A stretch of DNA of 15,921 nt from contig JADHWZ010000027.1 of the NCBI GenBank assembly GCA_016783225.1, positions 1 through 15,921 of the forward strand, in the 5' to 3' direction. Positions 1 to 15,921 of the stretch are shown here, piece after piece. This DNA comes from Dehalococcoidia bacterium. GTDB taxonomy: Bacteria; Chloroflexota; Dehalococcoidia; GIF9; UBA5620. The position numbers and the translations under genes were made by a program. Numbering within the stretch: position 1 is the stretch's first letter; every line of letters starts with the position of its first letter. The notes below the pieces were generated by a model. It worked only from the letters and a program-made list of their open reading frames with translations, was not told where the DNA came from and searched no databases.

Positions 1-372
1 TGGGTTGACCAACCTACCGAGCATGCGAACAACCTCATCGTTAGGTTTTAGAGTCAGACTCTCCTTACTTATCATCAAGCCTTTAGCCCACGCGTCAAGC
101 CCGTCACTATAGCCACCTATTCGTGTACCATAGCAATTAGTCGTGTGGCCCCAACAGCATGGGTAAATACGAGCAAACTCTTGCCCATGTTGTTTAACTC
201 CAATAAATCTTGGGTCTTGGTCTTCTTTAGTCCTTTTGCGCTGGGAAGCTAATGCAGTAAACCTGTGACCATTTGGCGTTACTAGCTGCTGTTCACCAGC
301 ATCATCTAAGCGTTTCCAAACAATATCAAATCTACTCTGTAGTATCTTTTGACTTTGATGCCGTATACTCAT
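1..372 (-). CDS. Hypothetical protein, 3' end cut by window edge
   Basis: Reading the minus strand from an ATG at 372 gives 124 codons without a stop up to base 1, so the gene continues beyond the window. The protein begins MSIRHQSQKILQSRFD and contains a PCCWGHTTNCYG segment around residues 71-82 with three cysteines and a histidine, which could bind a metal. I do not recognise the family. No clear ribosome binding site precedes the ATG. The ATG overlaps the stop of the small upstream ORF as ATGA (369-372), which would fit translational coupling. The same frame also has a GTG at 414, fourteen codons upstream, just after an in-frame TAA. It lies in the AT-richer accessory region with other minus-strand genes. 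Confidence 0.5.
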   Translation of the reverse strand, partial: MSIRHQSQKILQSRFDIVWKRLDDAGEQQLVTPNGHRFTALASQRKRTKEDQDPRFIGVKQHGQEFARIYPCCWGHTTNCYGTRIGGYSDGLDAWAKGLMISKESLTLKPNDEVVRMLGRLVNP

Positions 373-581
373 TGCATTAGCCTGTAACTGACCTGCCCCC
401 AGCAATTGTACCACGTCTTAATCCGTAGTTGTTGGAGCGCAAACCCGTATGATTGCCTGGGGGTAGAAGCGCAGAAGTAACAGATCTTGTCACAGCGGAA
501 ATCAGGGGCGTATACGTGAGTTGTTTCTGGATTTCGGCGGGCTATCGGCTTTATTTTCTGTGACCTGCGCCCATAAGTCAT
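369..581 (-). CDS. Small hypothetical ORF, doubtful
   Basis: This is a 70-residue frame with a CDKICYFC cysteine cluster in the middle (about residues 30-37). It is basic at the N-terminus and has no membrane segment or family I recognise. No Shine-Dalgarno sequence is visible before the ATG at 581. The only argument for it is position: its TGA overlaps the ATG of the next minus-strand gene as ATGA, and it lies between two genes of the same direction. It could equally be a chance frame, or the decayed N-terminal part of the downstream gene in another frame. Confidence 0.25.
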   Translation of the reverse strand: MTYGRRSQKIKPIARRNPETTHVYAPDFRCDKICYFCASTPRQSYGFALQQLRIKTWYNCWGQVSYRLMQ

Positions 582-608
582 ACCAAGTTCTAAGTTAGTC
601 TGGCTGAG

Positions 609-646
609 GGCATTTCAAGTTCAAACTAACATTCCGATGAAATGCC
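609..646. repeat. Inverted repeat behind the UDG-like gene
   Basis: GGCATTTCA (609-617) pairs perfectly with TGAAATGCC (638-646), a 9-bp stem with a 20-nt loop. It begins two bases after the stop codon of the minus-strand gene 649-1497. No T-run follows on the minus strand, so it is not a classical intrinsic terminator, but a 3'-end stabilising or terminating role is plausible. Confidence 0.4.
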
Positions 647-648
647 AA

Positions 649-1497
649 CTACTTAGGTAAGCCTCCGAACTTCTCCGATATACATTTTTTCATTTCTCTG
701 AAGTAGTACCAATCAACCTGTATAGCTTTGCGTATCAGCCCCGCCTTATCTGGAGTCCCTTGTATTACGGCTCGTAAACCCAGTTTGTCCGGTTCTGGGT
801 CGCACCCCTCATTTCTAATCAAACGCTTACCTTTTGGTACCCATCGGGAGCTCAGGTTCAAGCGACCTGGGAAAGGTATTTTGATAAGCGTGGTGTGCTT
901 GCCATCTTGCTGCAGACCTCTTCTCAGAGCATTGGCTACATCATTACCTGCACCGATGATTAAATCCGGCTGCAACACTTCAACTTCATACTTGGAATAG
1001 CATTTCCACATCGTATCGTATATGTCCAGGGGAGGGTTAGCATCCAGACGGGTGCCATCTCCCTTCTGTCGATAGAATGAGAACTTTACGAAATTTGTAA
1101 CGGCGATTTTGTCATCAACGTTATCTGATGGTTCATAGTCTGTATTCGGATAGGCATCCAACGCCAATGCAGCAATAACCTTGAGATGCCCATCGTCGTA
1201 CGGAGTTATAGAAACACTCGGTTTGTCAGGATAGTAATATTGGCGTAGCATACCTTTGTCAGATCTCTTTCGCCACACTGTGACAGCACTTGGAGTCCGG
1301 GCAAGATTTTGAGACATAGCGTATATCAGGACTCGGGGTGTCGGACCAAAGTACAGCTTACCTATGTAGGGTACGTATGGTCCCAAATATTCGCCGTTCG
1401 CATTCACTACATTGTCGTAGTAATCCTGAGGGGCGTAGCTTTGTTGTGAATGGTGCGATATTAGAGCGGCCTTTGCTACTTCAACGTCCGACTGCAT
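649..1497 (-). CDS. Possible uracil-DNA glycosylase-fold protein
   Basis: The protein has 282 residues and a Shine-Dalgarno-like GAGGA just before the ATG. The order of motifs resembles the UDG superfamily. A strand-loop PRVLIYAMSQNLA (residues 54-66) sits where the family has its catalytic GxxPG loop. VTNFVKFSF (133-141) resembles the TNxVKC segment. LQPDLIIGAGNDVANALRRG (175-194) resembles the conserved KPxxIxxLGxxAxxAL helix. IPFPGRLNLSSRW (207-219) sits where the HPSP loop is expected. Neither catalytic motif is canonical: the first lacks the usual Asp/Glu and the second lacks His. If the fold is right, the enzyme may be inactive or act on something else. The C-terminal 60 residues are unassigned. 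UDG-fold proteins occur in defence and repair loci, but no partner gene is visible. The assignment rests on pattern recognition only. Confidence 0.45.
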   Translation of the reverse strand: MQSDVEVAKAALISHHSQQSYAPQDYYDNVVNANGEYLGPYVPYIGKLYFGPTPRVLIYAMSQNLARTPSAVTVWRKRSDKGMLRQYYYPDKPSVSITPYDDGHLKVIAALALDAYPNTDYEPSDNVDDKIAVTNFVKFSFYRQKGDGTRLDANPPLDIYDTMWKCYSKYEVEVLQPDLIIGAGNDVANALRRGLQQDGKHTTLIKIPFPGRLNLSSRWVPKGKRLIRNEGCDPEPDKLGLRAVIQGTPDKAGLIRKAIQVDWYYFREMKKCISEKFGGLPK

Positions 1498-1674
1498 GGT
1501 ATGTCCTCGCTTGGGTTGTTGCCCATCTTATATCGCATTGTAGGATTATCCCCCCTCCTCTGGGGGTCGAGACGTTACAGGCTGGGTGAGGAATTCGGCA
1601 TATACAATTGGGCTCAACTTGCTTCAGGCAACCGCCAACTCGCTAACGATTTCACGAAGACTTGACGCCATTGG

Positions 1675-2160
1675 TCACTTCCTTCCTCCCAGTCTCAGCG
1701 ACAGGAAATAGCCAGCCACTATAAGAGCGTATCCGAGCAGAATGGTAATGACGCTACCTACTGCAATCCGAAGATCAAAAGTAGGTGTGGTCGCTGAAAC
1801 GTGAGCGTAGCTAAGAAAAGCAATGCCCACACCTGTTACGCCGATACCGGTGTGAGTTAGCCACCCAGGTTTTAGTTCTCTATACAGTTCCTCTAAGCGC
1901 TTCGACATCCCACTTACAACCTTATTCAGCTCGGCAAGTTGGCTCTGCACGTCTCTTGAGTCTTGGGTTATTTGGTCACTCTGTAGGGTATCTATATCAG
2001 GTGCAGTCACACGTTCCTCATTGGCTCTTTCTCTCTGTTTCTTGATATTGCGCCTCCTAAGCAAGAATGAACCGCCAATGATCAAACCGAGAAATGCATA
2101 AGTCCACAGTCTTCTTCTCGGGTTATCGTGCCTTTCGTTGCTAGCTTGTGTATCGTCCAT
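1675..2160 (-). CDS. Coiled-coil membrane protein, three predicted helices
   Basis: This 161-residue protein has a strong ribosome binding site (GGAGGGAGGG just before ATG 2160). A hydrophobic helix spans about residues 18-34 and is followed by a very basic stretch (RRRNIKKQRERA). Residues 56-97 are polar and heptad-like (LQSD...LAELNKVVSGMSKRLEELYREL), probably a coiled coil. Two more hydrophobic segments lie at about 104-122 and 131-155, and the protein ends in RLGGRK. By the positive-inside rule the basic stretch after helix 1 and the coiled coil should be cytoplasmic. I recognise no family. It lies on the same strand as its neighbours but is separated from each by 177-240 bases, so it may be transcribed alone. 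Confidence 0.7.
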   Translation of the reverse strand: MDDTQASNERHDNPRRRLWTYAFLGLIIGGSFLLRRRNIKKQRERANEERVTAPDIDTLQSDQITQDSRDVQSQLAELNKVVSGMSKRLEELYRELKPGWLTHTGIGVTGVGIAFLSYAHVSATTPTFDLRIAVGSVITILLGYALIVAGYFLSLRLGGRK

Positions 2161-2285
2161 TCATCCCTCCCTCCTAATGTACTAAAGTGCCCGCTGCTCG
2201 CATCACACACAATATGTCAACCCAATTATACACCGACCGCAAACGAAGGGAAACGCCCGCCGAGTCTAATCCCCAATTCTTTCCC

Positions 2286-2315
2286 CTTATGTGAAATACC
2301 CCATTGAGAACGCTT
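2286..2315 (-). repeat. 30-base dispersed repeat, copy 1
   Basis: On the minus strand this reads AAGCGTTCTCAATGGGG followed by TATTTCACATAAG. It matches copy 2 (3185-3214) at 27 of 30 bases, including 23 identical bases in a row, and copy 3 (4677-4706) at 27 of 30. All three copies point the same way. It lies between the 2401-2904 and 1675-2160 genes. Confidence 0.75.
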
Positions 2316-2323
2316 AAAGTCCC

Positions 2324-2340
2324 AAGAATCGAGGATTCTT
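2324..2340. repeat. Perfect 7-bp hairpin
   Basis: AAGAATC (2324-2330), loop GAG, GATTCTT (2334-2340). It lies 60 bases beyond the stop of the minus-strand gene 2401-2904 and 8 bases from repeat copy 1. There is no T-run on either side, so a terminator role is uncertain; it may belong to the same mobile remnant as the repeat. Confidence 0.4.
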
Positions 2341-2400
2341 CTTGAAAGTGATACGCTTGGGCCTTGAAACATGACCATTCTCCACGTCTTTACTCTTCTT

Positions 2401-2904
2401 TTACCATCTGATTCTGAAAATGATTTTACAGGTTCCATTGCAGTTGTTGGTGTTTCTATCCGTAATAGCCTCGCCCTCAAGGCCCAAGGCTTTGAGCCAG
2501 GAATCGAATCTCGTTTTGGCTGCACATCGGTGAATTTCCGTGATTCCTGCTTTGCTCAGGTTCTTATAGACATAGCATTCCAGGACGTGCCCTAAGAGTG
2601 AGCTATTATCCAGGGGCTTAAACTCATACTTGTGTTCTTCAGGGAAATAGAGATCGGCGAGGATTACCATCAGTGCTTCAAGGTCGTCAATATTCTTGAT
2701 CTTCCCGTAATCGGTCTCTGCAATTAATTGTTTGATTTCCGTTTTCCCGAAGGACTTAGTTACTGCGAGATTCAGTTTAGTGGCGGTATCGAAGCCAAGT
2801 TCTTCTATCGATTTCAAGAACGACCTTGCATCGTGTAAGACCCAGACGTTCCGTAGGACCTTTTCTTTTTGCTCGGATGTAAGCTTAACTTGTTTCGGAC
2901 TCAT
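2401..2904 (-). CDS. DUF6125 / L-2-amino-thiazoline-4-carboxylate hydrolase-like protein
   Basis: The protein has 167 residues, with GGGAGGT ten bases before ATG 2904. The N-terminal pattern (VLRNVWVLHDARSFLKSIEE, residues 17-36, with W21, H24, D25 and F29), followed by GFDTATKLN and a GKTEIKQL helix, matches my memory of the DUF6125 family and the related L-2-amino-thiazoline-4-carboxylic acid hydrolase family. The C-terminal half has ECYVYKNLSKAGITEIHRC (109-127), RFDSWLKALG and a final CNGTC pair (C155, C159), in line with the cysteine-containing end of these proteins. The reaction is unknown for DUF6125; hydrolysis of the thiazoline is known only for the named relative. Most DUF6125 proteins I recall are somewhat longer. 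It is flanked on both sides by copies of the 30-base repeat. Confidence 0.55.
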   Translation of the reverse strand: MSPKQVKLTSEQKEKVLRNVWVLHDARSFLKSIEELGFDTATKLNLAVTKSFGKTEIKQLIAETDYGKIKNIDDLEALMVILADLYFPEEHKYEFKPLDNSSLLGHVLECYVYKNLSKAGITEIHRCAAKTRFDSWLKALGLEGEAITDRNTNNCNGTCKIIFRIRW

Positions 2905-3070
2905 GTCTTAATACCTCCCTTCTGACTTTTCAAGGAATCTCTCCTCCAAATCCTGGATACTGATAAGAGTTTCGCGGCTTTAGCGCTTTTGACTATTCAC
3001 CGAAATAAAATGTGCGACCTCTAAAATGGTAGCCTGTGTCATGCTCAATCTCATTATATGGCCTCGACTG

Positions 3071-3501: not shown

Positions 3502-4533
3502 ATGTGGGATGCTTCAAAGTGCGACCTGTGCGGCGACTGTCTGGTGAAGTGCCGTTATGTCGATTATGACAAGGATAGGGCAGTTGCTGAGATCAAGCTG
3601 CTCATGGAGGGCAAAAACGCCGACATCCTCAGCACGTGTACCACCTGCGTCGCCTGTAATGACTACTGCCCGACGGGAGCCGATCCCTCTAACCTCATCT
3701 TCAAGATGCAGGAGAAGATGGGCACCTGTCCCATAGTGGTAGTCGGTAAACCGGCACTCGAGCAATTGGTCAGCGGACTCGAGGGACGGGGAGACCCCAG
3801 GCAGCTGATACCGGGCGACCCTGATAAGCCGGTCCTCTCACTCGACGGCTTCCAGTATGAGCAGTTCCCCGATGGCACCCTTGACAGCCAGCTATTCAAG
3901 GGCATGACCGTCGTCAGGGGTGGTGAGTATATGTCCCTCGCCGGCTGTGTGCATATGGGTGGGGAGAGCTTTGTTGAGAAGTACGGCCAGGGGGTCATTG
4001 ACAAGCTCGCCAGTTTGGGCAAAGACATCGTGTACATCCACAATGAGGGTTTTGTTCTAGTGCATGTCAAGGCCAAGGAGTACGGTTTCAACGTTCCCTT
4101 CAAGTACATGCACCTCTTCGAGTACCTGCGCAACTATCTGAGGGACCACCAGAATGACATCACCAAGCTGGGCAAGAAGGTCGCCTACCAGGCTAACTGC
4201 GCCACCAGATGGATCCCGGAGCATGATGCCTTCCTTGACGAGGTCTTCGAGCTTGTCGGCGTGGAACGGCCGGCCAGGCAGTATGAGCGGTTGAACGCCG
4301 TCTGCTGCAGCGGGCCCCTTATCTACACCAACAGGGAGTTGGCCATTGACATCCAGAAGAAGAACTTCGAGGACGCCATCAAATTCGGCGCCGATGCCCT
4401 GATAACTTCCTGCCCCATATGCGACGGAGTGCTCCGGCGACCCAGTTCACAGTCTGGTCTGCCCAAGATCTTTATCACTGACCTGTGCCGCATTGCTCTC
4501 GGTGAAAAGCCCTGGCCAGAAGGCTCCGGGTAG
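3502..4533 (+). CDS. HdrC-HdrB-like Fe-S fusion protein
   Basis: This 343-residue soluble electron-transfer protein has two ferredoxin-type motifs at its N-terminus: C7-x2-C10-x2-C13-x3-C17 and C46-x2-C49-x2-C52-x3-C56-P. Each should carry a [4Fe-4S] cluster, as in HdrC. The C-terminal half has one CCG domain: C233, then CC at 268-269 and CPIC at 304-307, with 34 residues in each interval. This is the spacing of the non-cubane cluster motif in HdrB, GlcF and LutA. A first CCG domain seems degenerate, with only C149 (LAGCVHMGG) obvious. The protein is therefore shorter than a full HdrD. AAAGGAG stands seven bases before the ATG and a consensus promoter lies upstream. As first gene of the cluster it may move electrons to or from the flavoenzymes encoded downstream; the partner is inferred. 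Confidence 0.8.
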   Translation: MWDASKCDLCGDCLVKCRYVDYDKDRAVAEIKLLMEGKNADILSTCTTCVACNDYCPTGADPSNLIFKMQEKMGTCPIVVVGKPALEQLVSGLEGRGDPRQLIPGDPDKPVLSLDGFQYEQFPDGTLDSQLFKGMTVVRGGEYMSLAGCVHMGGESFVEKYGQGVIDKLASLGKDIVYIHNEGFVLVHVKAKEYGFNVPFKYMHLFEYLRNYLRDHQNDITKLGKKVAYQANCATRWIPEHDAFLDEVFELVGVERPARQYERLNAVCCSGPLIYTNRELAIDIQKKNFEDAIKFGADALITSCPICDGVLRRPSSQSGLPKIFITDLCRIALGEKPWPEGSG

Positions 4534-4676
4534 CCAAGCTCCATTCCAGGTAGTTGCGGGATTGATGGCATGGAGCCTCTCGGTTGAGGCACGTAGCAGA
4601 GACAATGCTCTCAGACCTCTACGGCGGACCAGGGACTGGTTTTGTCGTGCTCGGGACGCCTGGCTAGAACTTTTCC

Positions 4677-4706
4677 CTTATGTGAAACACCCCATAGAGA
4701 GCGCTT
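4677..4706 (-). repeat. 30-base dispersed repeat, copy 3
   Basis: On the minus strand it reads AAGCGCTCTCTATGGGG then TGTTTCACATAAG, matching copy 1 at 27 of 30 bases. It lies in the 230-base gap between the Fe-S gene and the cyclodeaminase-like gene, ending 57 bases before the latter's TTG start. Confidence 0.7.
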
Positions 4707-4750
4707 CACTGCTATCTCAAAAAATGCGGGACGTGCTGCTCAACTGGGAG

Positions 4751-4757
4751 AAAGGAG
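4751..4757 (+). promoter_or_regulatory. Ribosome binding site selecting a TTG start
   Basis: AAAGGAG lies six bases before TTG 4764. The only nearby ATG (4794) has no comparable site before it, which favours the TTG. Confidence 0.55.
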
Positions 4758-4763
4758 CCCCTT

Positions 4764-5765
4764 TTGGAGATAAGTCTGGGTGAACGGTTTGATATGCCAG
4801 CAGTCCTTGTGCTGGGGGCAGGCGAAATACGGGAATTGATCAGCATGGGCGAGGCGCTAGAGGTTGTTGAAAAGGCCTTCAGGCTGGGAGCTGAGGGTAA
4901 GGCCGTTATGCCCCCCAAGCTGTACCTGGAGCTTCCGGATTACCACGGCGATTTCAGGGCTATGCCATGCTATGTTGACGGGATTGCTGGGCTCAAATGG
5001 GTATGCGCATACCCGGATAACAAGCGCCGCAATCTACCAAGCGTGATAGCTACAATTATCCTATCCGACCCTAAGACAGGGTGTCCCCTTGCTATTATGG
5101 ACGGCACGTATATTACCGAGATCAGGACTGGGGCTGCAGGAGGCATAGCCGCCAAGTACCTGGCCAGGAGAGACTCATCTGTTGTCGGAGTAATAGGGGC
5201 CGGCGTACAGGCCAGGTCACAACTGTCGGCCATAAGCCAGGTGCTGACGGAGGTTAGAGTGGTGAAGGTATTTGACCAGAATAAGGATGCCAGTCTGAAG
5301 TATGTGCGGGACATGGAGGCAGAGCTGAATATCAACGTTCGCGCCGTGGAGACTGTCCGTGAGGCAACAGAGGCCGATGTTGTGGTGACCGCCACTCCGT
5401 CAACAACGCCGGTTGTTAGCCGGCAGTACATCAAGGCGGGGACTCACATAAACGCCATCGGTGCGGATGCCAGGGGCAAGCAGGAGCTGGAAGGAGAGCT
5501 GCTAAAGAGCGCCAAAGTCGTAGTTGACGACTTCGAACAGGCCTGTCACTCAGGTGAAATCAATGTCCCATTGTCACGGGGCACATTGAAGGTCGACGAA
5601 GTCTACGGGACTCTGGGCGAGGTTGTGGCTAACGCCAAGAGGGGACGCGAAAACGACCAGGAGATAACCGTTTTCGATTCAACCGGGCTGGCAATACAGG
5701 ATATCGCCTGTGCCAGGTTCGTATACGAAAAAGCTCAAGGGAGAAAGGGTTCTGCGTCGCGTTGA
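4764..5765 (+). CDS. Ornithine cyclodeaminase / mu-crystallin family protein
   Basis: The family includes ornithine cyclodeaminase (ornithine to proline plus ammonia), alanine dehydrogenase, ketimine reductases and related NAD(P)-dependent enzymes. Its marks are GLKWV (K78, the usual substrate lysine), TEIRTGAAGG (118-127), the dinucleotide-binding VGVIGAGVQARSQL (141-154), HINAIGADARGKQEL (228-242, with D235 at the catalytic aspartate position) and DSTGLAIQDIA (305-315). At 333 residues the length is normal. The start is probably TTG 4764, with AAAGGAG six bases upstream; ATG 4794 (residue 11, MPAVLVLG) is the alternative. Substrate cannot be read from sequence. Next to an aminotransferase it may reduce a cyclic imine or release ammonia from an amino acid in the same pathway. 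Confidence 0.85.
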   Translation: MEISLGERFDMPAVLVLGAGEIRELISMGEALEVVEKAFRLGAEGKAVMPPKLYLELPDYHGDFRAMPCYVDGIAGLKWVCAYPDNKRRNLPSVIATIILSDPKTGCPLAIMDGTYITEIRTGAAGGIAAKYLARRDSSVVGVIGAGVQARSQLSAISQVLTEVRVVKVFDQNKDASLKYVRDMEAELNINVRAVETVREATEADVVVTATPSTTPVVSRQYIKAGTHINAIGADARGKQELEGELLKSAKVVVDDFEQACHSGEINVPLSRGTLKVDEVYGTLGEVVANAKRGRENDQEITVFDSTGLAIQDIACARFVYEKAQGRKGSASR

Positions 5766-5800
5766 GCGACAGTCGTTGATGTTACGAGAGAGCTTTGGAA

Positions 5801-5833
5801 GAGAGCCGGAGCTTCTGAGGCGGCTCCGCTCTC
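5801..5833 (+). repeat. Strong bulged hairpin between genes
   Basis: GAGAG (5801-5805), bulged C5806 and CGGAGC (5807-5812) pair with GCTCCG (5823-5828) and CTCTC (5829-5833): eleven GC-rich pairs around a 10-base loop. No T-run follows, so it is unlikely to be an intrinsic terminator. In the 130-base gap between two co-directional genes it could be an mRNA processing or stability element. Confidence 0.5.
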
Positions 5834-5895
5834 CAGTATGGCGGAATCTGCGGAGCAAGCGACAAGAGGAAGGATAGGATAACGAGGAGGTAGAA

Positions 5896-7242
5896 ATGAC
5901 TAGCAAGAGGGCAGAGGAGCTTCTCAAGGCCGATGAGGAGCTCATACTACATCCGGCCTGGCCGATTGGAAGTGAAGCCGCCGGCCTAGTATTTGAGAAA
6001 GCCAAGGGGGTAATCCTGCAAGATGTGGACGGCAAGGAATACATCGACATTTCTGGCCAACTGATGAACGTCAACCTGGGACATGGGCGCAGGGAAATCA
6101 TCGACGCAATCGTGAAGCAGGCAAACGAGCTGCAGTACACTGACGCATTCCGGGGCAAATCCAGTAGAGCGACTATCGAATGTGCGCAAAACCTGGCCAA
6201 GATTACCCCGGCAGGACTGAAGCATTTCCTGTTCGCTGCCGGCGGTTCAGAGGCCAATGAATATGCCTTCGAGCTTGCTCGACTCTACTGGCGAAGGCAA
6301 CAGAAGGCCAACAAGTTCAAGATTATCAGCCTGCGCCATAGCTACCACGGCATTTCCTTCGCGGCTGCCACTGCTTCTGGGATAGGAAGGGGAAACATCA
6401 CGGCCGGCTTCGAGCCGTCGGTGCCTGGTTTCTTGCGTATCCCTTCATACTGCTGCTACCGTTGCGATTTCGGGCTGGAGTATCCTGGCTGTGGTATGCA
6501 CTGCGCCAAGTACCTTGAGACGACCATTGAGGACCACGGTGCGGAGAGCGTGGCGGCCTTCATCGCTGAGGGAATGCACGGCGCAGGTGGGGTGATCCCG
6601 CCGCCACCAGAGTGGTGGCCGTTAATCAGAGAGATATGCACTAAACACAACGTACTGCTGATTGACGACGAGGTAATGTCTGGCTTTTGCAGGACGGGCA
6701 GGATGTTCGCTATAGAGAACTGGGGCGTTGTGCCGGATATGATGACCATGTCCAAGGGTATCAACAGCGCCTATCTGCCATTCGGAGCGGTGGCAATCAA
6801 TGACATGGTCTTCGAAGGCCTGAAGGGCAGCATCTTTATCGGGTTCAGCTCTTGTGGGAATCCTATTTGCAGCGCTGCTGCATCCGCAGCCATAGACGTC
6901 TACATCAGGGAGAGAATTGCTGAGCACGTGGCCAAGGTAGGCGAGCACGTGAAAAAGCGCCTTGATACTGAGTTTGGGCCTCTGCCCTACGTAGGTGACA
7001 TTCGTGGGCTTGGCCTGTTCATTGGAATTGAGCTGGTTGCAGATAAGGCCACCAAGGCCAAGTTTGATCCAGCCTTGAATGTGCCGGAGAAACTGGGCAG
7101 ACAGATGCGCGAGAAGGGCATCCTGGTGCGCGCGGACGACGCCATGATCGTTGTTGCTCCACCACTCATAATCACCAAAGAGGAGATCGACAGAGCGCTG
7201 GACGTGATGTATCCCGTGCTGGCCGATTTCAAACCAGTCTAA
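5896..7242 (+). CDS. Class III PLP aminotransferase, omega-amino acid type
   Basis: This 448-residue fold-type I aminotransferase transfers the amino group of an omega- or beta-amino acid to a keto acid using pyridoxal phosphate. Visible marks are GGSEANEYA (116-124, phosphate binding), RHSYHG (147-152), LLIDDEVMSGFCRTG (254-268, with D258 for the PLP nitrogen), and the Schiff-base lysine K287 in MTMSKGIN. FGAVA follows at 296-300. A cysteine-rich insert (YCCYRC...YPGCGMHC, 185-203) is a feature I associate with the subgroup annotated as taurine-pyruvate or 4-aminobutyrate-like aminotransferases. GAGGAGG precedes the ATG. In this cluster, conversion of 4-aminobutyrate or a homologue to the semialdehyde would feed the hydroxyacyl-CoA dehydratases; this is inference. 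Confidence 0.88.
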   Translation: MTSKRAEELLKADEELILHPAWPIGSEAAGLVFEKAKGVILQDVDGKEYIDISGQLMNVNLGHGRREIIDAIVKQANELQYTDAFRGKSSRATIECAQNLAKITPAGLKHFLFAAGGSEANEYAFELARLYWRRQQKANKFKIISLRHSYHGISFAAATASGIGRGNITAGFEPSVPGFLRIPSYCCYRCDFGLEYPGCGMHCAKYLETTIEDHGAESVAAFIAEGMHGAGGVIPPPPEWWPLIREICTKHNVLLIDDEVMSGFCRTGRMFAIENWGVVPDMMTMSKGINSAYLPFGAVAINDMVFEGLKGSIFIGFSSCGNPICSAAASAAIDVYIRERIAEHVAKVGEHVKKRLDTEFGPLPYVGDIRGLGLFIGIELVADKATKAKFDPALNVPEKLGRQMREKGILVRADDAMIVVAPPLIITKEEIDRALDVMYPVLADFKPV

Positions 7243-7698: not shown

Positions 7699-8451
7699 AT
7701 GGATTTCTCTTTAGATGGCAAGATGGCTCTTGTAACCGGCGGCGGCCGCGGCATCGGGCGAGCTGTGGCACTTGGTCTTGCCCGGGCCGGCGCGGATGTC
7801 GTGGTGGCCAGTCGGAAACTTCCTGATCTGGAAAAGGTGGCTGAGGAGATAAGAGGTCTGGGCAGGAAATCCCTGGCTGTAGCGGCGCACATCGGCAGGG
7901 TCGAGGAAATCAGCAATCTAGTCAGCAGGGTGAAGGAGGAGTTCGGGAAGATCGATATCCTGGTGAACAACGCCGGCACGAACCCCACTATGGACCAGGC
8001 CCTGGACATAGATGAGCGTGCCTGGGACTCAATCATGAACCTCAACCTGAAAGGGTTGTTCTTTGTGAGCCAAGCGGTGGCCAGGGTGATGAAGGAACAG
8101 GGTGGAGGCAAGATTATCAACATCGCCTCGGTGGCGGGGATTACCCCCGACATATTGCCAGTTTACTCTATGAGCAAAGCCGGGGTGATCATGGCGAGCA
8201 AGGTCATGGCGCAGCAATGGGCACAGTACAACATCAGGGTAAACACGGTAGCCCCCGGGCTAACCAGGACTCAATTCAGCCAGGCACTCTGGAGTAACCC
8301 GGACATCCTACAGGGCGCTATGAGTAGAACTCCCATGGGGCGGATAGCCGAGCCTGAGGAGATGGTAGGGGCTATCATTTTCCTGGCCTCTGATGCCTCC
8401 AGTTATGTAACCGGGCAGGTCATAGCCGTGGATGGAGGCATCAGCATATAA
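7699..8451 (+). CDS. SDR-family oxidoreductase, FabG-like
   Basis: This 250-residue classical short-chain dehydrogenase/reductase has the cofactor motif TGGGRGIG (13-20), NNAG (90-93), catalytic N114, S144, Y156 and K160 (YSMSK), and the C-terminal VTGQVIAVDGG. A basic residue at R17 in the glycine loop and R39 after the second strand (VVASRK) would suit NADP(H). The cofactor is a guess from these. The family oxidises or reduces hydroxyl/carbonyl groups on many substrates. In this cluster two roles fit: reducing the semialdehyde made by the aminotransferase, or oxidising the 3-hydroxyacyl-CoA made by the crotonase. The start at ATG 7699 is set by the AAGGAGG site. The gap to the next gene is only 67 bases, so co-transcription with the dehydratases is likely. 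Confidence 0.85.
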   Translation: MDFSLDGKMALVTGGGRGIGRAVALGLARAGADVVVASRKLPDLEKVAEEIRGLGRKSLAVAAHIGRVEEISNLVSRVKEEFGKIDILVNNAGTNPTMDQALDIDERAWDSIMNLNLKGLFFVSQAVARVMKEQGGGKIINIASVAGITPDILPVYSMSKAGVIMASKVMAQQWAQYNIRVNTVAPGLTRTQFSQALWSNPDILQGAMSRTPMGRIAEPEEMVGAIIFLASDASSYVTGQVIAVDGGISI

Positions 8452-8518: not shown

Positions 8519-10000
8519 ATGATTACATCGAGTGAGTATCGCAAGAGGTTGAGCAAGATGAGGCGGAATGTCTACATGGATGGCGAGCTTGTGGATCGCG
8601 AGAATCCGCGGATGGAGGGGGCGGTAAATGTCCTGGCCAAGACCTATGACTTGATAAACGACCCGGAATTCAAAGAGTATGAGGATATACTCACGACCAC
8701 GTCTCACCTGACTGGCAAGAAGATAAACCGGTTCTGCCACACTCATCGGAGTGTTGAAGACCTGCTTGCCAAGCAGAGGATGACAAGATTGGCGTGTCAC
8801 CAGGTAGGTGGATGTATTGCCAGGTGTATGGGCATCGACGCTATCAACGCAAATTCCGTGGTTAGTTACGAGGCTGACCAGGCGTACGGCACTGAGTATC
8901 ACAAGAGGTTTGAGAACTGGTTGAGGGAGTTCCAGGAGAACGATCGCACCGGTTGCTGTGCCCAGACAGATGTCAAAGGAAACCGCCCGTGGAGACCTCA
9001 TGAACAGCTAGACCCAGACCTCTACCTCCGCGTGGTGGAAACGAAAAGCGATGGTGTCGTCATCAGGGGAGCCAAGGTGCACAACTCAGTTGCCCCCTGT
9101 GTGGAATGGCTCATGGTGCTACCTACACGGCGACTGACGGAAGAGGAGGGTTCTTGGGCGATTTCCTGTGCTGTTCCGGCTGATGAAGAGGGTGTAAAGC
9201 TAATTGTTAGCGCTGCCAACTATGAGGTCTCTAAGGACCTGGGCATGGCGGGTCCTTTTGGGTCGGCTGACTCTCTGACGATTTTCGACAACGTGTTTGT
9301 TCCCTGGGAGAGAGTGTTCCTGAATGGAGAGTATGAGCTGGGTGGCAGGCTGGCGCTTTTGTTTGCCCTGTATCACCGCCACAGCTACACTGGCTGCAAA
9401 CCGGCTATGACGGATGTTCTTACAGGGGCCACTGCGCTGATGGCTGAATGCAACGGGATAGAAAAGCAGGCGCATGTGAGGGAGAAGCTGGCTGAGCTGA
9501 TCTGTACTTCTGAGCTGTGCTATGGGACAGGTATTGCCGCCGCGATCAATGGCCAGAAGTCGGGTTCGGGAACGTATATACCCGATATCCTGTACTGCAA
9601 CGTAAGCCGCAGGCATGCAGGTGTAAATATCTACCATGAGTTCGACATCCTGGCCGATATTGCTGGAGGCATGCCTGCAACCTTGCCGCGCGAGGGCGAT
9701 TGGTTGAACCCGGAGACTCGCCCATTCATGGAGAAGTACATGATGCGGAACCCGGAGGTGCCCATCGAAGACATACACCGTGCCTTTCGCTGGGTACAGG
9801 CTATATCATGTTCAGAGCTTGCTGGCGTCATGCAGTACGCTGGCGTTCACGGTGGCGGTTCTCCCAGGATGGAACAGATAGCCATCATGGGTAGCTACGA
9901 TGTGGAGAAGACGAAGAGTATCGCCAAACGCCTGGCGGGCATTCCGGTAAAGGAGGAATACTCCTTCGGTAGGTTGGGGGTGACGCCGGGAGAACGGTGA
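8519..10000 (+). CDS. abfD: 4-hydroxybutyryl-CoA dehydratase family, paralog 1
   Basis: This 493-residue member of the HpaB/AbfD flavoprotein family is preceded by GGGAGG. In Clostridium aminobutyricum AbfD, FAD and a [4Fe-4S] cluster dehydrate 4-hydroxybutyryl-CoA to crotonyl-CoA by a ketyl radical mechanism; ligands there are C99, C103, H292 and C299. All are present here: C99-IAR-C103, and H286 with C293 in HRHSYTGC. The Y296 and K300 equivalents are Y290 and K294. These ligands separate it from the oxygen-dependent HpaB hydroxylases. By hand alignment AbfD T190, E257 and E455 correspond to S190, D251 and A441, and a glutamate conserved in AbfD (SHE) is W197, so the substrate may differ. 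It is about 88% identical to the next gene. The family call is firm, exact substrate unproven. Confidence 0.82.
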   Translation: MITSSEYRKRLSKMRRNVYMDGELVDRENPRMEGAVNVLAKTYDLINDPEFKEYEDILTTTSHLTGKKINRFCHTHRSVEDLLAKQRMTRLACHQVGGCIARCMGIDAINANSVVSYEADQAYGTEYHKRFENWLREFQENDRTGCCAQTDVKGNRPWRPHEQLDPDLYLRVVETKSDGVVIRGAKVHNSVAPCVEWLMVLPTRRLTEEEGSWAISCAVPADEEGVKLIVSAANYEVSKDLGMAGPFGSADSLTIFDNVFVPWERVFLNGEYELGGRLALLFALYHRHSYTGCKPAMTDVLTGATALMAECNGIEKQAHVREKLAELICTSELCYGTGIAAAINGQKSGSGTYIPDILYCNVSRRHAGVNIYHEFDILADIAGGMPATLPREGDWLNPETRPFMEKYMMRNPEVPIEDIHRAFRWVQAISCSELAGVMQYAGVHGGGSPRMEQIAIMGSYDVEKTKSIAKRLAGIPVKEEYSFGRLGVTPGER

Positions 10001-10123
10001 GTTGGAATCGGGTTACCAAGAGGCCTCTTTGCAGTTTCGCAGAGAGTGGTAGTTGGCGGTGAGGGAACGCCCCACAGTGGTAGTGTGACAGTTGGGAGAT
10101 GAGGTTTCACTCAGGAGGGCACG

Positions 10124-11605
10124 GTGATTACATCAAGTGAATATCGCAGAAGACTGAGCAAGATGAGGCGGAATGTCTACATGAACGGCGAGCTCATAGA
10201 CCGCGACGACCCCCGGCTGGAAGGAGGGGTCAACAGGCTCGCTAAGACCTACGACATGGTGGCGGCCCCGGAGTTTAAGGAATATGAGGGCATTCTTACG
10301 GCTACATCTCACCTGACCGGTGAGAAGATAAACCGATTCTGCCATATTCACCGAAGCGTTGCCGATTTGCTTGCCAAGCAGAGGATGACCAGATTGGCCT
10401 GCCACCAGGTAGGCGGGTGCATCGACAGATGTATGGGTATCGACGCTATCAATGCAAATTCCGTGGTCAGTCATGAGGCCGACCAGGCGTACGGAACTGA
10501 GTATCACAAGAGATTTGAGAACTGGCTCAGGGACTTCCAGGAGAATGACCGCATGGGTTGTTGCGCTCAGACAGATGTCAAAGGAAACCGCCCGTGGCGA
10601 CCTCACGAACAGCTGGACCCCGACCTCTACGTCCACGTGGTAGAGACAAAAAGCGACGGTGTTGTCATCAGGGGAGCCAAAGTGCACAACTCGGTTGCCC
10701 CTGTTGTCGAAGAGATCATGGTGATACCTACCAGGCGACTGACGAAGGAGGAGGGAGAGTGGGCGATTTCGTGTGCGGTTCCGGCCGATGCAGAGGGCGT
10801 GAAACTGATTGTCAGCGCCGCTAAGCAGCCTATCTCCAAGCGGTTAGGGATGCCCGGCCCCTATGTGGGCGCCGACTCTCTGACGGTTTTCGACAACGTG
10901 TTTGTTCCCTGGGAGAGGGTGTTCCTGAATGGCGAGTATGAGCTGGGTGGCAGAGTGGCGCTCTTGTTTGCCCTTTTCCACCGCCACAGCTATACGGGCT
11001 GTAAGCCAGCCTTGACAGACGTGCTTACGGGAGCTACTGCCCTGATGGCTGAATGCAACGGGATAGAGAAGCAAGCGCACGTCAGGGAGAAGCTGGCGGA
11101 AATGATTTGTACCTCGGAGCTGTGTTACGGCACGGGAATTGCCGCTGCGATTAACGCTGAGAAGTCGGGCTCAGGAACCTACATTCCAGACATAGTATAC
11201 TGCAACGTCAGCCGCAAACATGCAGGTGTAAATATCTACCATGAGTTCGATATCCTGGCAGATATTGCTGGAGGGATGCCTGCAACCTTACCGCTGGAGG
11301 GCGATTGGTTGAACCCGGAGACTCGCCCGTTCATGGAGAAGTACATGATGCGCAACCCGGAAGTTCCGATTGAAGATATACACCGTGCCTTTCGCTGGGT
11401 GCAGGCCATATCGTGCTCGGAAGCGGCTGGCGTGGCGCAGTATGCGGGCGTTCACGGCGGTGGTTCTCCCAGGATGGAGCAGATTGCCATCATGGCCAGC
11501 TACGATGTCGAGAAAACTAAGAACATCGCCAAGCGCCTGGCTGGCATTCCCGTGAAAGATAAATACTCCTTCGACAGGTTCGGGGTGATGCCGGGAGAAC
11601 GATAA
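10124..11605 (+). CDS. abfD: 4-hydroxybutyryl-CoA dehydratase family, paralog 2
   Basis: This 493-residue protein starts at a GTG with AGGAGG five to ten bases upstream. Aligned gaplessly with the preceding gene it differs at about 58 positions. The differences concentrate at residues 1-60 and 181-250; residues 271-450 are nearly identical. The [4Fe-4S] ligands (C99, C103, H286, C293) and Y290/K294 are kept, as are the substitutions S190, D251 and A441. Unlike paralog 1 it has E197, matching the conserved glutamate of AbfD, so it may be the more conventional of the two. AbfD is a homotetramer; two close paralogs could form a mixed tetramer or serve different chain lengths. The 123-base gap between the copies shows no promoter that I can identify. 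Confidence 0.82.
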   Translation: MITSSEYRRRLSKMRRNVYMNGELIDRDDPRLEGGVNRLAKTYDMVAAPEFKEYEGILTATSHLTGEKINRFCHIHRSVADLLAKQRMTRLACHQVGGCIDRCMGIDAINANSVVSHEADQAYGTEYHKRFENWLRDFQENDRMGCCAQTDVKGNRPWRPHEQLDPDLYVHVVETKSDGVVIRGAKVHNSVAPVVEEIMVIPTRRLTKEEGEWAISCAVPADAEGVKLIVSAAKQPISKRLGMPGPYVGADSLTVFDNVFVPWERVFLNGEYELGGRVALLFALFHRHSYTGCKPALTDVLTGATALMAECNGIEKQAHVREKLAEMICTSELCYGTGIAAAINAEKSGSGTYIPDIVYCNVSRKHAGVNIYHEFDILADIAGGMPATLPLEGDWLNPETRPFMEKYMMRNPEVPIEDIHRAFRWVQAISCSEAAGVAQYAGVHGGGSPRMEQIAIMASYDVEKTKNIAKRLAGIPVKDKYSFDRFGVMPGER

Positions 11606-11681: not shown

Positions 11682-12464
11682 ATGGAGTTTGAGACGATTC
11701 TCTACGACAAAAAGGATAACGTTGCCTGGATAACGTTTAATCGGCCGGACAAGTTGAATGCGCAGAACGAGACCTTGCTTGGTGAAGTCGTTGCCGCGCT
11801 GGAGAAGGCCAACGACGATGATGAGGTGTACGTCATCGTCATAACGGGGGCTGGAGATAGGGCTTTCAGCGCCGGTGCTGATATCAGTATGTTTTCCAAA
11901 TGGGGTCCCATTGACGTCATCAAGTGGACCAAGGCGACAAGAAGGCCATACGAGTTCATAAGGGAGATTCCCAAGCCGGTCATAGCCATGGTGAACGGGA
12001 TTGCAGTTGGCGGCGGGACTGAGATATCGATTGCCTGCGACATAATCATAGCCGCCGAGAATGCCCAATTTGGGCAGCCGGAGATAAGCGTTGGAGTTAT
12101 ACCGGGTGGAGGAGGCACCCAGATGTTGCCGAGGCTCGTGGGGGAGAAGAAGGCCAAGGAGCTTATCCTGACCGGCGATTTCATCTCAGCCGAGGAGGCC
12201 TTGCAGCTCGGGTTGGTCAACAGGGTTGTCCCAAAGGAGAAGCTGAGGGAAGCGGTTGACGAAGTCATCGGTAAACTCAAGAGCAAGAGCCCGGCCATCT
12301 TGAAGTTTGCCAAGCTGGCGGTGAACAAGTCCCTTGAGACTCCCCTTTCAGTCGGGATCCAGAGCGAAGCCGACCTCTTTGCCCTCTGTTTCGGAACCGA
12401 GGACCAAAAGGAAGGGGCAAAGGCTTTCCTGGAGAAGAGGCCTCCCAGGTACACCGGGAGATGA
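11682..12464 (+). CDS. Enoyl-CoA hydratase/isomerase (crotonase family)
   Basis: This 260-residue enzyme is preceded by AGGAGGTG and ATG. Marks of the family are AFSAGADI (61-68, first part of the oxyanion hole), VNGIAVGGGTEISIACDI (104-121, second oxyanion-hole part) and FGQPEISVGVIPGGGGTQ (130-147). Both catalytic glutamates of true enoyl-CoA hydratases are present, E114 (GGGTE) and E134 (QPE), so hydration of a 2-enoyl-CoA to the 3-hydroxyacyl-CoA is likely. The C-terminal KAFLEKRPPRYTGR is typical. Directly behind two enzymes expected to make crotonyl-CoA or a homologue, it supplies the next beta-oxidation step. It is 76 bases from the preceding gene and likely in the same transcript. Confidence 0.9.
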   Translation: MEFETILYDKKDNVAWITFNRPDKLNAQNETLLGEVVAALEKANDDDEVYVIVITGAGDRAFSAGADISMFSKWGPIDVIKWTKATRRPYEFIREIPKPVIAMVNGIAVGGGTEISIACDIIIAAENAQFGQPEISVGVIPGGGGTQMLPRLVGEKKAKELILTGDFISAEEALQLGLVNRVVPKEKLREAVDEVIGKLKSKSPAILKFAKLAVNKSLETPLSVGIQSEADLFALCFGTEDQKEGAKAFLEKRPPRYTGR

Positions 12465-12588: not shown

Positions 12589-14505
12589 ATGAAATTATTA
12601 CAGCCTATTAGCATTGGAAAGATGGAACTGAAAAACCGGCTGGTGGTGCCACCCATGGGGACCGGCTTTAGTGCGCCCGATGGAACGGTATCAGACCGGC
12701 TCATCGAGTACCACGAGGCCAGGGCCAGGGGAGGCTTTGGGCTCGTCATCGTGGAGGTGACCGCTATCGATCCTCTGGGTAAGGGGAGTCCCATCCAGTT
12801 GGGCATCTGGGACGACAAGTTCATACCCGGGTTAGGCCGCCTTGTCGACCGGATCCACGCCGCTGGCGCCAAGATTGCTGTACAGTTGCATCATGCCGGG
12901 CGTGTGGCATTTTCCTCTAATGTCGGTGGCCAGCAGCCCGTAGCCCCATCGCCTATCCCTGACCGCGTTTTTCGAGAGATGCCCAGGGAGCTAACCGTAG
13001 AGGAGATAGGTTCGCTGGTTGAAGCCTATGCCCAGGGGGCACGGCGTGCCAAAGAGAGCGGTTTTGATGCGGTAGAGCTGCATGGCGCCCATGGCTACCT
13101 CATAGCCCAGTTCATGTCAGCTTACGCAAACAAACGGACCGACGAGTACGGCGGTAACTTAGAGGGATTCCTGCGCTTTCCCCTGGAGATCTTGCAGCGG
13201 ACGAGAGAACTGGTGGGGCCTGATTACCCCATCCTGTTCCGCATCAGCGCTGACGAAGCGGTTCCCGAAGGCCGTACCATTGAGGAGAGCGTGGTGGTAG
13301 CCAAGCGGCTCGTTGAGGCGGGCGTTGATGTGCTTCATGTCTCCGCAGGAGTACCTGAGTCGTCTCACCTCACCAGTGCGCCTCCTGCCATGGAGCCAGG
13401 ATTCAATGCCGCGGCGGCTGCTACCATCAAGTCGGCTGTTTCGGTGCCGGTCATTGCCGTAGGACGGATAGTAAACTCTGGCGTTGCCGAGGATATCCTC
13501 AGCTCCGGGAAGGCCGACCTGGTGGCCATTGGGAGGGCGTCATTAACCGACCCTGAATTCGCCATCAAGGCAGCAGAGGGCCGCGATGAGGATATTGTCA
13601 AGTGCCTTTCCTGCAATGAGGGCTGCATTGATATGCTGATGCTGGGCACGCCGCCGATAACCTGCATTCAGAACCCGGCGCTGGGGCGAGAAGCGGAATA
13701 CGCTTCAGCAGCTGCGGCAACGGCCAAGAGGGTGGTGGTTGCTGGTGGTGGGCCAGCGGGTCTGGAAGCAGCCAGGACGGCAGCTTTGTGGGGACATAGG
13801 GTCACCCTGTGTGAAAAGCGCGACTGCCTCGGCGGGCAAGCTCTGCTGGCAGCAGTGCCTCCTACCAAGGAGATTTGGCTGGAGGTGGTTCGGTCTCGAA
13901 TCAAAGACCTGGAGCGATTGGGAGTGGACATAAGGCTGAATTGTGAGCTGACCCCCGGGATGGCTAATGAGTTGTCGCCGGACGTAGTCATAGTGGCCAC
14001 GGGGTCAGCGCCGCTCTTACCGGATATTGCAGGAATAGATCGAGGCAATGTTGTCACCGCTCACGATGTCCTCAGCGGAGCCCCGGTTGGCGTCAGGGTG
14101 GTGGTGGTTGGAGGGGGCATGGTGGGGTGCGAGACCGCCGACTACCTGGCTCAGCAGGGCAAGGACGTGACCATAGTTGAGATGCTCCGGCGTACTGCTC
14201 AGGACGTCTCGCCATCGGCCCGCTACTTTCTGCGCCAGCATCTCAGGGAGAGAAATGTGACGATACTGACCTCCACTCCGGTGAAGGCTATCACTGACGC
14301 TGGCGTGGTTGTTAGCTCCGAGGGGGAAGAGCGAACACTCGAATCTGTGGATACCGTGGTTCTGGCCACAGGGGCAAAATCGGTCAATGACTTGGCTGGA
14401 GTGAAGGATCTCGCCCCGGAGGTGTATGTGGTGGGTGATGCCGCCAGCCCGGGTAAGATACTGCAGGCTGTCCAGCAGGCGGCAGAGGTAGCGCGGAGTC
14501 TGTAG
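12589..14505 (+). CDS. 2,4-dienoyl-CoA reductase-like FMN/Fe-S/FAD enzyme
   Basis: This 638-residue enzyme is of the old-yellow-enzyme/FadH/2-enoate reductase/trimethylamine dehydrogenase group. The N-terminal TIM barrel carries FMN: PPMGTG (21-26), QLHHAGR (99-105), ELHGAHGYLIAQF (163-175, with Y170 at the FadH catalytic tyrosine) and VGRI (291-294). C339-x2-C342-x3-C346-x12-C359 binds a [4Fe-4S] cluster. The FAD domain follows with VVVAGGGPAGLEAA (382-395), an NAD(P) motif VVVVGGGMVGCE (504-515) and VVGDAASPGKI (614-624). The FadH catalytic histidine seems not to be in the same place (nearest is H260), so the reaction may be another C=C reduction. I chose ATG 12589 (GGAG upstream); the frame is open to 12334, but that part overlaps the crotonase gene and looks non-coding. 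It may reduce the enoyl-CoA formed upstream. Confidence 0.85.
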   Translation: MKLLQPISIGKMELKNRLVVPPMGTGFSAPDGTVSDRLIEYHEARARGGFGLVIVEVTAIDPLGKGSPIQLGIWDDKFIPGLGRLVDRIHAAGAKIAVQLHHAGRVAFSSNVGGQQPVAPSPIPDRVFREMPRELTVEEIGSLVEAYAQGARRAKESGFDAVELHGAHGYLIAQFMSAYANKRTDEYGGNLEGFLRFPLEILQRTRELVGPDYPILFRISADEAVPEGRTIEESVVVAKRLVEAGVDVLHVSAGVPESSHLTSAPPAMEPGFNAAAAATIKSAVSVPVIAVGRIVNSGVAEDILSSGKADLVAIGRASLTDPEFAIKAAEGRDEDIVKCLSCNEGCIDMLMLGTPPITCIQNPALGREAEYASAAAATAKRVVVAGGGPAGLEAARTAALWGHRVTLCEKRDCLGGQALLAAVPPTKEIWLEVVRSRIKDLERLGVDIRLNCELTPGMANELSPDVVIVATGSAPLLPDIAGIDRGNVVTAHDVLSGAPVGVRVVVVGGGMVGCETADYLAQQGKDVTIVEMLRRTAQDVSPSARYFLRQHLRERNVTILTSTPVKAITDAGVVVSSEGEERTLESVDTVVLATGAKSVNDLAGVKDLAPEVYVVGDAASPGKILQAVQQAAEVARSL

Positions 14506-14601: not shown

Positions 14602-14988
14602 TCATTGCCGCTTCCTGAGCTTCTGCCTTTCTATCCTGCGCAGGGTATCGTCGCCAATGCCGAAGTGATGGGCGATCTCGTGACGGACTACTTCGCCTAT
14701 CTCCGTTTCGATTTGTCTCTCAGAGCGGCATCTTGCCTCGATGGGTTTCTGAAAGATGGTTATCTTGTCTGGCAGAACCAGGTTGTAGCCTCTGTCCCGA
14801 CTGGTTTGAGGTACTCCTTCATAAAGACCTAGCAGTTGACTACTATGCCTGAGTCCCAAGTTGCGCACTTGACTTCGGCTCGGCCAGTCCTCTACCACCA
14901 CGTCGACATTTTCCAGTTTGCTCTGGAATTCGGCTGGGAGTTCTTCCAGGGCTTTGGTTACAAGGGCTTCGAACCTGTTCCTGTGCAT
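14602..14988 (-). CDS. Zinc metallopeptidase family protein (DUF1025-like)
   Basis: This 128-residue protein has the zincin motif HEIAHHFGIGDD: H103 and H107 as zinc ligands, E104 as general base, and D113 as probable third ligand (HExxHxxGxxD). The N-terminal half, with F6, LEELPAEF and VDVVVEDWPS, then LLGLYEG and ITIFQKPIE, is the pattern of the short 'metallopeptidase family protein' (PF06262 in my memory), usually 110-140 residues. No signal peptide is seen, so it should be cytoplasmic. The substrate is unknown for the family. It lies 29 bases behind the small membrane protein gene and is probably co-transcribed with it. It converges on the dienoyl-reductase-like gene with 96 bases between the stops. 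No clear ribosome binding site precedes its ATG. Confidence 0.85.
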   Translation of the reverse strand: MHRNRFEALVTKALEELPAEFQSKLENVDVVVEDWPSRSQVRNLGLRHSSQLLGLYEGVPQTSRDRGYNLVLPDKITIFQKPIEARCRSERQIETEIGEVVRHEIAHHFGIGDDTLRRIERQKLRKRQ

Positions 14989-15424: not shown

Positions 15425-15517
15425 GTTGCTCAAAAGCAAAGCTGTGTTCTGCTTCTGTAACTGCGTCTACCAATGCGGGAAGGTGTCGTTTCAAAAAGCG
15501 GATAAGGTGCGTGCGTG

Positions 15518-15546
15518 TTGACGACATAGCCGCAACGGGATACAAT
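15518..15546 (+). promoter_or_regulatory. leuS promoter, very close to the start codon
   Basis: TTGACG (15518-15523), a 17-base spacer and TACAAT (15541-15546): ten of twelve consensus bases at optimal spacing. The leuS ATG is at 15556, only nine bases beyond the -10 box, so transcription should start within a few bases of the ATG. No Shine-Dalgarno sequence is seen before that ATG, in agreement. Confidence 0.72.
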
Positions 15547-15555
15547 CAGTCCGTT

Positions 15556-15921
15556 ATGAGTTCTTCTCTCAAATACAACCCCCAGGAAATCGAAAAGAAA
15601 TGGCAGGACAAATGGGCGGCTGATAGGCTTTACGAGGTCAGGGACGATGATAGCCGCCCCAAGCTGTATGAGTTGACCATGTTCCCCTATACCTCGGGTG
15701 ACCTCCATATCGGACACTGGTATGCCATGGCGCCGTCGGACGTCCATGCCAGGTTTAAGCGTATGCAGGGTTATAATGTGCTCCACCCCATGGGCTTCGA
15801 TGCCTTTGGGCTGCCTGCAGAGAACACGGCTATCAGTCGCGGTATTCATCCCTACACCTGGACGATGGAAAATGTCGAGAACATGCGCCGCCAGCTCAAA
15901 AGTATGGGTGCCATATATGAT
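15556..15921 (+). CDS. leuS: Leucyl-tRNA synthetase, N-terminal part
   Basis: The first 122 codons of a class I aminoacyl-tRNA synthetase, cut by the window edge. It charges tRNA-Leu with leucine in the cytoplasm. The start [20 protein letters not shown] is typical of bacterial LeuRS. The ATP-binding HIGH signature appears as [16 protein letters not shown] (about residues 48-63) after [21 protein letters not shown] follows at about 84-98, the usual leucine-site region. Editing domain and KMSKS lie beyond the window. The gene has its own promoter and no visible ribosome binding site. It is a housekeeping gene and not functionally tied to the catabolic cluster. Confidence 0.95.

Follow-up and report, generated by a model that had tools for sequence, protein, structure and literature searches.

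The stretch of DNA analyzed here (15,921 nucleotides, called the window; Dehalococcoidia bacterium, GenBank assembly GCA_016783225.1, contig JADHWZ010000027.1) carries two adjacent genes, copies A and B, that encode proteins of the family of AbfD, the 4-hydroxybutyryl-CoA dehydratase of Clostridium aminobutyricum. They are flanked by an SDR-family gene upstream and by the genes for an enoyl-CoA hydratase (ECH) and an OYE-like oxidoreductase downstream. We favor, with moderate confidence, the reading that the pair is an old tandem duplicate within a Dehalococcoidia SDR-A-B-ECH-OYE set, that A is the ancestral copy, and that B was kept for the changed surroundings of its active site, its substrate perhaps being another one. 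A literature search that covered titles and the openings of abstracts, with most subscription papers outside its reach, returned nothing on the tandem pair or its subfamily.

Both copies are intact open frames of 493 residues, and they align without gaps. When both start codons are translated as Met, they differ at 58 amino acids (88.2% identity) and at 259 of 1482 nucleotides. This agrees with the first-pass annotation, which had counted about 58 differences (about 88% identity) between two adjacent 493-residue genes. That annotation took the duplication to be recent. The synonymous divergence (dS) between A and B, however, is 0.88 in the window, with a dN/dS of 0.08. Copy B, used as the query of a genome scan, matched 13 loci, one of which, L010 (Dehalococcoidia genome G001, isolate PowLak16_MAG20), has the same order of SDR, A, B, ECH, OYE, a zincin gene on the opposite strand, and a tRNA synthetase gene. 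The two copies of L010 are separated by a dS of 0.72. Between the window and L010, the dS values are 0.75 for SDR, 0.97 for A, 0.89 for B, 1.02 for ECH, and 0.78 for OYE. Because the A/B dS resembles the dS between the window and L010, A and B diverged at about the time these lineages did, or earlier. Both copies are under purifying selection, and dN/dS between the two lineages is 0.089 for A and 0.069 for B. The dS of 0.88, the same pair in L010, and the rejection of a window-only pair over residues 1–260 (below) contradict a recent duplication. Adjacent Sir2 and macro-domain genes lie just upstream of the tandem set in L010 (2707–4180).

A whole-protein tree was built from 85 rows (71 of 120 listed proteins, a further 12 encoded in 11 of the 13 loci, and window copies A and B; the partial L012 and L013 were left out). 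The bootstrap trees make A and B sisters in 4% of cases. Copy B groups with the protein P0003 and with L010 copy B (87/91), and A groups with single-copy relatives (81/87); L010 copy A adjoins the B clade. The description of the genes as tandem paralogs stands: the copies lie side by side and fall into neighboring clades of one subfamily, and no separation into distant clades was seen. The clade tests used 25 rows that we chose from 68. Over residues 1–260, window copy B, P0003, and L010 copy B form a clade at 99/97. Approximately unbiased tests (p-AU) over these residues rejected both the window trio (window A, window B, and P0003; p-AU 0.0002) and the L010 trio (L010 A, L010 B, and P0005; p-AU 0.0105).

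Single-copy loci show the same site with one AbfD-like gene. In L002, L003, and L005, SDR precedes it, and ECH and then the zincin gene come after it. In L012, the contig ends inside the AbfD-like gene, and the remainder is arranged in the same way. The OYE gene is present at the orthologous site in both tandem loci and in none of the four single-copy loci, of which L012 is cut upstream. Among 12 genomes, the relative of the OYE protein matches at approximately 84–85% in G001 (L010) and at 45–60% in the six other matching genomes. We also surveyed 30 genomes from the family of G001. A member at E≤1e-200 occurs in 14 of these, and a side-by-side pair occurs in G001 only; G002 and G404 have two members each, on different contigs. 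Across the class, 11 of 393 genomes contain such a member. The two subfamily members of G002 (L001 and L003, on different contigs) are both A-type at residues 248, 434, and 438.

The residues that mark copy B were identified from the alignments. Positions 35, 38, 101, 236, 248, 434, and 438 are fixed in the three B-type proteins (window B, P0003, and L010 B), and their residues recur in at most three other rows of 68. In a 173-row alignment, D101 and V248 occur only in the four B-type rows (P0003, window B, and the L010 B gene, which was retrieved twice) among 172 rows with a residue there. C99 and C103, the cluster cysteines, flank D101. V248 precedes D251 (AbfD Glu257) by three residues, and A438 precedes A441 (AbfD Glu455) by the same distance; all three are thus no more than three residues away from an active-site position of AbfD. 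Residues 101, 248, and 438 of copy B may line the pocket. Copy A and the single-copy relatives carry other residues at these three positions. Specialization of copy B is favored because D101, V248, and A438 have been kept in both B copies across two lineages, over a dS of 0.89 and at a dN/dS of 0.07. Copy B may thus handle a different substrate from A.

Several observations weigh against an old, specialized duplicate. The tandem DNA comes from two lineages only, the window and L010, with one more B-type protein (P0003). Near the active site, differences between A and B are not enriched: 6 of 59 (start codon counted) fall within three residues of nine positions that we take to be the active site of AbfD, where 47 of all 493 residues lie. 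The proposal of the first-pass annotation that the substrate-facing part has specialized is indirectly supported by the residues typical of B but not by the differences as a whole. A434 and A438 also recur in other relatives in the 173-row alignment. Over the whole protein, the B clade stands at 87/91 (85 rows) or 81/95 (25 rows), and the 25-row tests reject neither the window trio (p-AU 0.099) nor the L010 trio (p-AU 0.287). Residues 261–493 lack the B clade (p-AU 0.197, unrejected), place the L010 copies with P0005 at 66/88, and do not reject the window trio (p-AU 0.337). Sharing within a genome exceeds sharing between orthologs, both at amino acid sites (19 versus 9, with 5 for the third way) and at nucleotide sites (57 versus 38, with 27). 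The fold model of copy A has a confidence (pLDDT) below 50 at residues 439–457.

The excess of same-genome sharing bears on concerted evolution, which we consider doubtful but credible. Here the duplicate is old, its C-terminal part has been homogenized within each genome, and residues 1–91 and about 181–260 preserve the original division between A and B. This account and the old-duplicate reading are compatible. A conflict between half-gene trees is the trace expected of past gene conversion, and the halves do conflict, with the B clade in residues 1–260 and the joined L010 copies in residues 261–493. Segment trees (67/68 rows) conflict as well. Residues 1–91 plus 181–260 join window B, P0003, and L010 B (98), and residues 92–180 plus 261–493 join window A, window B, P0003, and P0001 (86). 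However, these segments were picked from the A/B distance, so the comparison is partly circular, and residues 261–493 reject neither the B clade nor the window trio. A chi-square test with free segments gave P=0.037 for all informative sites, and residues 377–423 show same-genome sharing at 11 of 11 sites. The same test was not significant for third positions (P=0.45), silent sites (P=0.127), or first and second positions (P=0.063), and between A and B, 33 of 66 four-fold sites differ in one part and 58 of 135 in the other. At silent sites, the same-genome pattern occurs 31 times and the other two patterns 15 times each. Among these 31, the window has G/C and L010 has A/T in 22, and the reverse holds in 7. 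The remaining two are the only silent patterns neutral to base composition, and both are same-genome. Such a tilt would be expected if base composition produces part of these patterns; the GC content at third codon positions is 0.64 for A and 0.66 for B in the window and 0.57 and 0.53 in L010. The 30 silent sites with the other two patterns are GC/AT changes without exception, so base composition does not fully explain the same-genome excess. The first-pass annotation had suggested that gene conversion keeps the C-terminal halves alike. The all-site test and the conflicting half trees speak for it, but with circular segments, nonsignificant silent and third-position tests, and composition-tilted silent sites, C-terminal conversion as the cause of the unevenness is not demonstrated.

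The unevenness itself was examined by counting and scanning. About half of the differences had been assigned to residues 1–60 and 181–250, and about a dozen to residues 271–450, which include H286 and C293 (aligned with AbfD H292 and C299). Our counts are 30 of 58 and 11 of 58, respectively. Compared with an even spread, the amino acid differences are clustered (P=0.02, 0.03, and 0.07 for scan widths of 40, 60, and 80 residues). Synonymous differences form no significant cluster (scan P 0.05–0.07), and their proportion per 50-codon block ranges from 0.37 to 0.71 with no trend. The intervals 1–60 and 181–250, which had been chosen from the same data, gave P=0.0018 when measured against how variable each site is in 66 other rows (64 homologs and the two L010 copies). 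They hold 52% of the A/B differences compared with a mean of 35% in 245 other family pairs with 40–85 differences, only one of which reaches 52%. When the choice of the two intervals was left to the scan and sites were weighted by their variability in the family, the A/B pair gave P=0.148. In this free scan, the A/B pair of L010 gave P=0.023, and 6 of 40 family pairs (a random sample of 120) fell below 0.05; mild unevenness is therefore common in the family. Uneven divergence thus holds against an even spread but is not shown beyond the site rates of the family, and much of the A/B unevenness is the family's ordinary spread of tolerant sites, with a modest excess at most. These results touch on whether the pair serves dosage only, with functionally alike copies that differ by drift at tolerant sites. 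The free-interval result and the absence of enrichment near the active site are what dosage would give. The B-only residues next to cluster and active-site positions, kept across two lineages at this dS and dN/dS, argue against it, and we regard dosage alone as unlikely.

The first-pass annotation had also raised a mixed tetramer or two chain-length specificities; AbfD itself is a homotetramer with bound FAD. It is very unlikely, in our judgment, that A and B form a mixed tetramer or carry out two consecutive radical steps, with B, which has an Asp between the cluster cysteines and an altered pocket, performing a reaction other than dehydration together with OYE. That the window lineage and the L010 lineage each duplicated the gene in tandem on their own is scarcely probable. 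The whole-protein tests reject neither trio, and L010 copy A is placed beside the B clade, but residues 1–260 reject both trios. The two B copies also occupy the same place in a common gene order and have D101 and V248 in common, which no other row shows.

The old-duplicate reading can be put into a scheme. The duplication would predate the split of the window and L010 lineages. A would retain the ancestral role, and B would have been retained because its active-site surroundings changed. Each copy is predicted to be an enzyme with flavin adenine dinucleotide (FAD) and a [4Fe-4S] cluster, acting on an acyl-CoA through a ketyl-type radical. The radical step would eliminate a group at C3/C4, or move it, and yield a 2-enoyl-CoA, the simplest input being a 4-hydroxy- or 3-enoyl-CoA. 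ECH would then hydrate the 2-enoyl-CoA, and SDR would oxidize the resulting 3-hydroxyacyl-CoA. OYE, which is at the site only where B is present, would serve a second substrate branch, where it would reduce a conjugated product. We hypothesize, from two tandem and four single-copy loci, that B together with OYE constitutes an additional branch.

The neighborhoods of other loci were also compared. Immediately upstream, 8 of the 13 loci have an SDR-family gene (that of L001 is only 38% alike, and L012 is truncated at this point), as do 7 of 10 additional loci (L048 is likewise truncated). ECH is directly downstream of the AbfD-like gene in the window, L002, L003, L005, L010, and L012. In other clades, the place of ECH is taken by a thiolase in L009, by an AMP-binding ligase in L047, and by a Peripla_BP_6 binding protein in L008, L044, and L045; in the remaining loci, none of these adjoins or the neighbors are not annotated. 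The ECH, thiolase, ligase, and SDR neighbors speak for the scheme above.

Table 1. Genes of the window around the AbfD-like pair.
Feature	Position	Strand	Remarks
SDR-family dehydrogenase	7699..8451	+	PF13561/PF00106; ATG preceded by AAGGAGG; upstream of the AbfD-like genes
Copy A, AbfD-like protein	8519..10000	+	Subfamily-usual residues; PF11794 (HpaB_N) and PF03241 (HpaB C-terminal), both above cut-off; 1u8v E=4.1e-99; C99, C103, H286, C293
Copy B, AbfD-like protein	10124..11605	+	B-type residues D101, V248, A434, A438; PF11794 and PF03241, both above cut-off
Enoyl-CoA hydratase (ECH), crotonase family	11682..12464	+	PF00378
OYE/2,4-dienoyl-CoA-reductase-like oxidoreductase	12592..14505	+	PF00724 and PF07992; start codon is our choice
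Zincin-like metallopeptidase	14602..14988	-	PF06262; marker of the orthologous site; common to 6 loci
Class I tRNA synthetase, N-terminus	15484..15921	+	PF09334/PF00133; cut by the window end; marker of the orthologous site; common to 5 loci

The best NCBIfam model for the OYE protein is BaiCD (NF041087) at 606.8 bits, under the cut-off of 825 bits. The tRNA synthetase is presumably leucyl by our own reading, with no model naming leucyl. Upstream, a neighboring gene set (3502–7242) encodes an Fe-S/CCG protein, an alanine-dehydrogenase-like protein (TIGR02371 above cut-off), and a class-III aminotransferase. A part for these genes in the pathway, as in a 4-aminobutyrate-like route, was considered and is unsupported, with no BLAST relatives in the 13 loci; the aminotransferase is matched at E≤1e-60 in one of 12 related genomes. 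The first part of the window (1–3000) has a GC content of 0.45–0.48 compared with 0.52–0.60 further on, and three scanned minus-strand open reading frames there (649–1497, 1675–2160, and 2404–2904) gave no Pfam match. This part may be an unrelated or acquired flank.

The family is well represented in relatives of the window. All 12 related genomes (G001–G012) hold AbfD/HpaB-family members at E≤1e-60, with up to eight in G002. They fall into subgroups with Glu455, with Ala/Gly455 and HGGGSPxME, with an HGGGSG type, and without the cysteine ligands. The last are L052–L054, in three related genomes. Glu-bearing AbfD-type paralogs (L031, L032, L034, and L039) occur in G005, G003, G008, and G007, respectively, alongside members of the subfamily of the window. 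They are 40–41% identical to copy B and, unlike it, keep Glu at 455 and HGAGSP. Distant paralogs with reported in-frame stops gave no sign of recoding: by tblastn, a stop fell within the aligned hit in two of six cases, at the C-terminal end, and in none of the other four.

The four AbfD positions that we take to be the [4Fe-4S] ligands (C99, C103, H292, and C299) are kept in A and B as C99, C103, H286, and C293, according to a residue table from which duplicates and hits covering fewer than 330 residues of the query were excluded. Among 126 homologs, Cys99 is present in 124 of 124 and Cys103 in 125 of 125 with a residue there, and His286 and Cys293 in all 126. Tyr296 and Lys300 of AbfD correspond to Y290 and K294, also in 126 of 126. 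By contrast, the position of Glu455, presumably an active-site residue of AbfD, is A441 in both copies. No Glu was seen there among 125 homologs with a residue (Ala 119, Gly 5, Thr 1). Glu257 and Thr190, to which we likewise assign roles in AbfD, are replaced conservatively by D251 and S190. The earlier AbfD assignment, with its cluster ligands, therefore stands at the family level only, because the Glu455 position is not Glu in this subfamily. The pair probably works like AbfD, with a predicted cluster, FAD, and a radical, and should not be filed as 4-hydroxybutyryl-CoA dehydratase. Since this position is Ala, the residues indicate that the substrate would not be 4-hydroxybutyryl-CoA or would be handled without the glutamate of AbfD. 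These results suggest that a family match alone is a poor ground for naming subfamily members 4-hydroxybutyryl-CoA dehydratase and a poor marker of 4-hydroxybutyrate carbon fixation. This is a subfamily that lacks the glutamate of the known enzyme yet has its cluster ligands, in related Dehalococcoidia genomes with up to eight family members each. A pair that is 88% identical and differs beside the predicted reaction center is also useful, as single-residue swaps could reveal what controls substrate choice in cluster/flavin dehydratases.

The closest known structures are two. The fold model of copy A (12 aligned sequences; mean pLDDT 83 for the best of five models, and 80, 53, 50, and 45 for the others) had 6vjr and 1u8v as its top matches in the PDB. 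AbfD of C. aminobutyricum (1u8v) shares the fold, matches over the full length (4.1e-99), and has C99, C103, H292, C299, Y296, and K300 at aligned positions. It differs in sequence (37% identity), in Glu455, Glu257, and Thr190 (Ala, Asp, and Ser in the window copies), in HGAGSPQAQ (HGGGSPRME in the window), and in M149 and P152 (Q and V). The Nitrosopumilus maritimus 4HBD (6vjr, deposited as vinylacetyl-CoA Delta-isomerase) also shares the fold and matches over the full length (2.6e-97), but it is 36% identical and keeps TESMHGAGSP with the Glu. A paper on other enzymes cites the AbfD radical mechanism (PMC13101534), and another gives BbuA as approximately 10% identical to 4HBD (PMC8364193). 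HpaB-type flavin monooxygenases (4-hydroxyphenylacetate 3-hydroxylase) share PF11794/PF03241 and the fold with the window proteins, which, unlike them, carry cluster ligands. The two copies stay far under the curated thresholds for such monooxygenases, with scores of 146.4 and 140.6 against the HpaB-1 cut-off of 480.2 (TIGR02309) and 75.3 and 68.2 against the HpaB-2 cut-off of 885.2 (TIGR02310).

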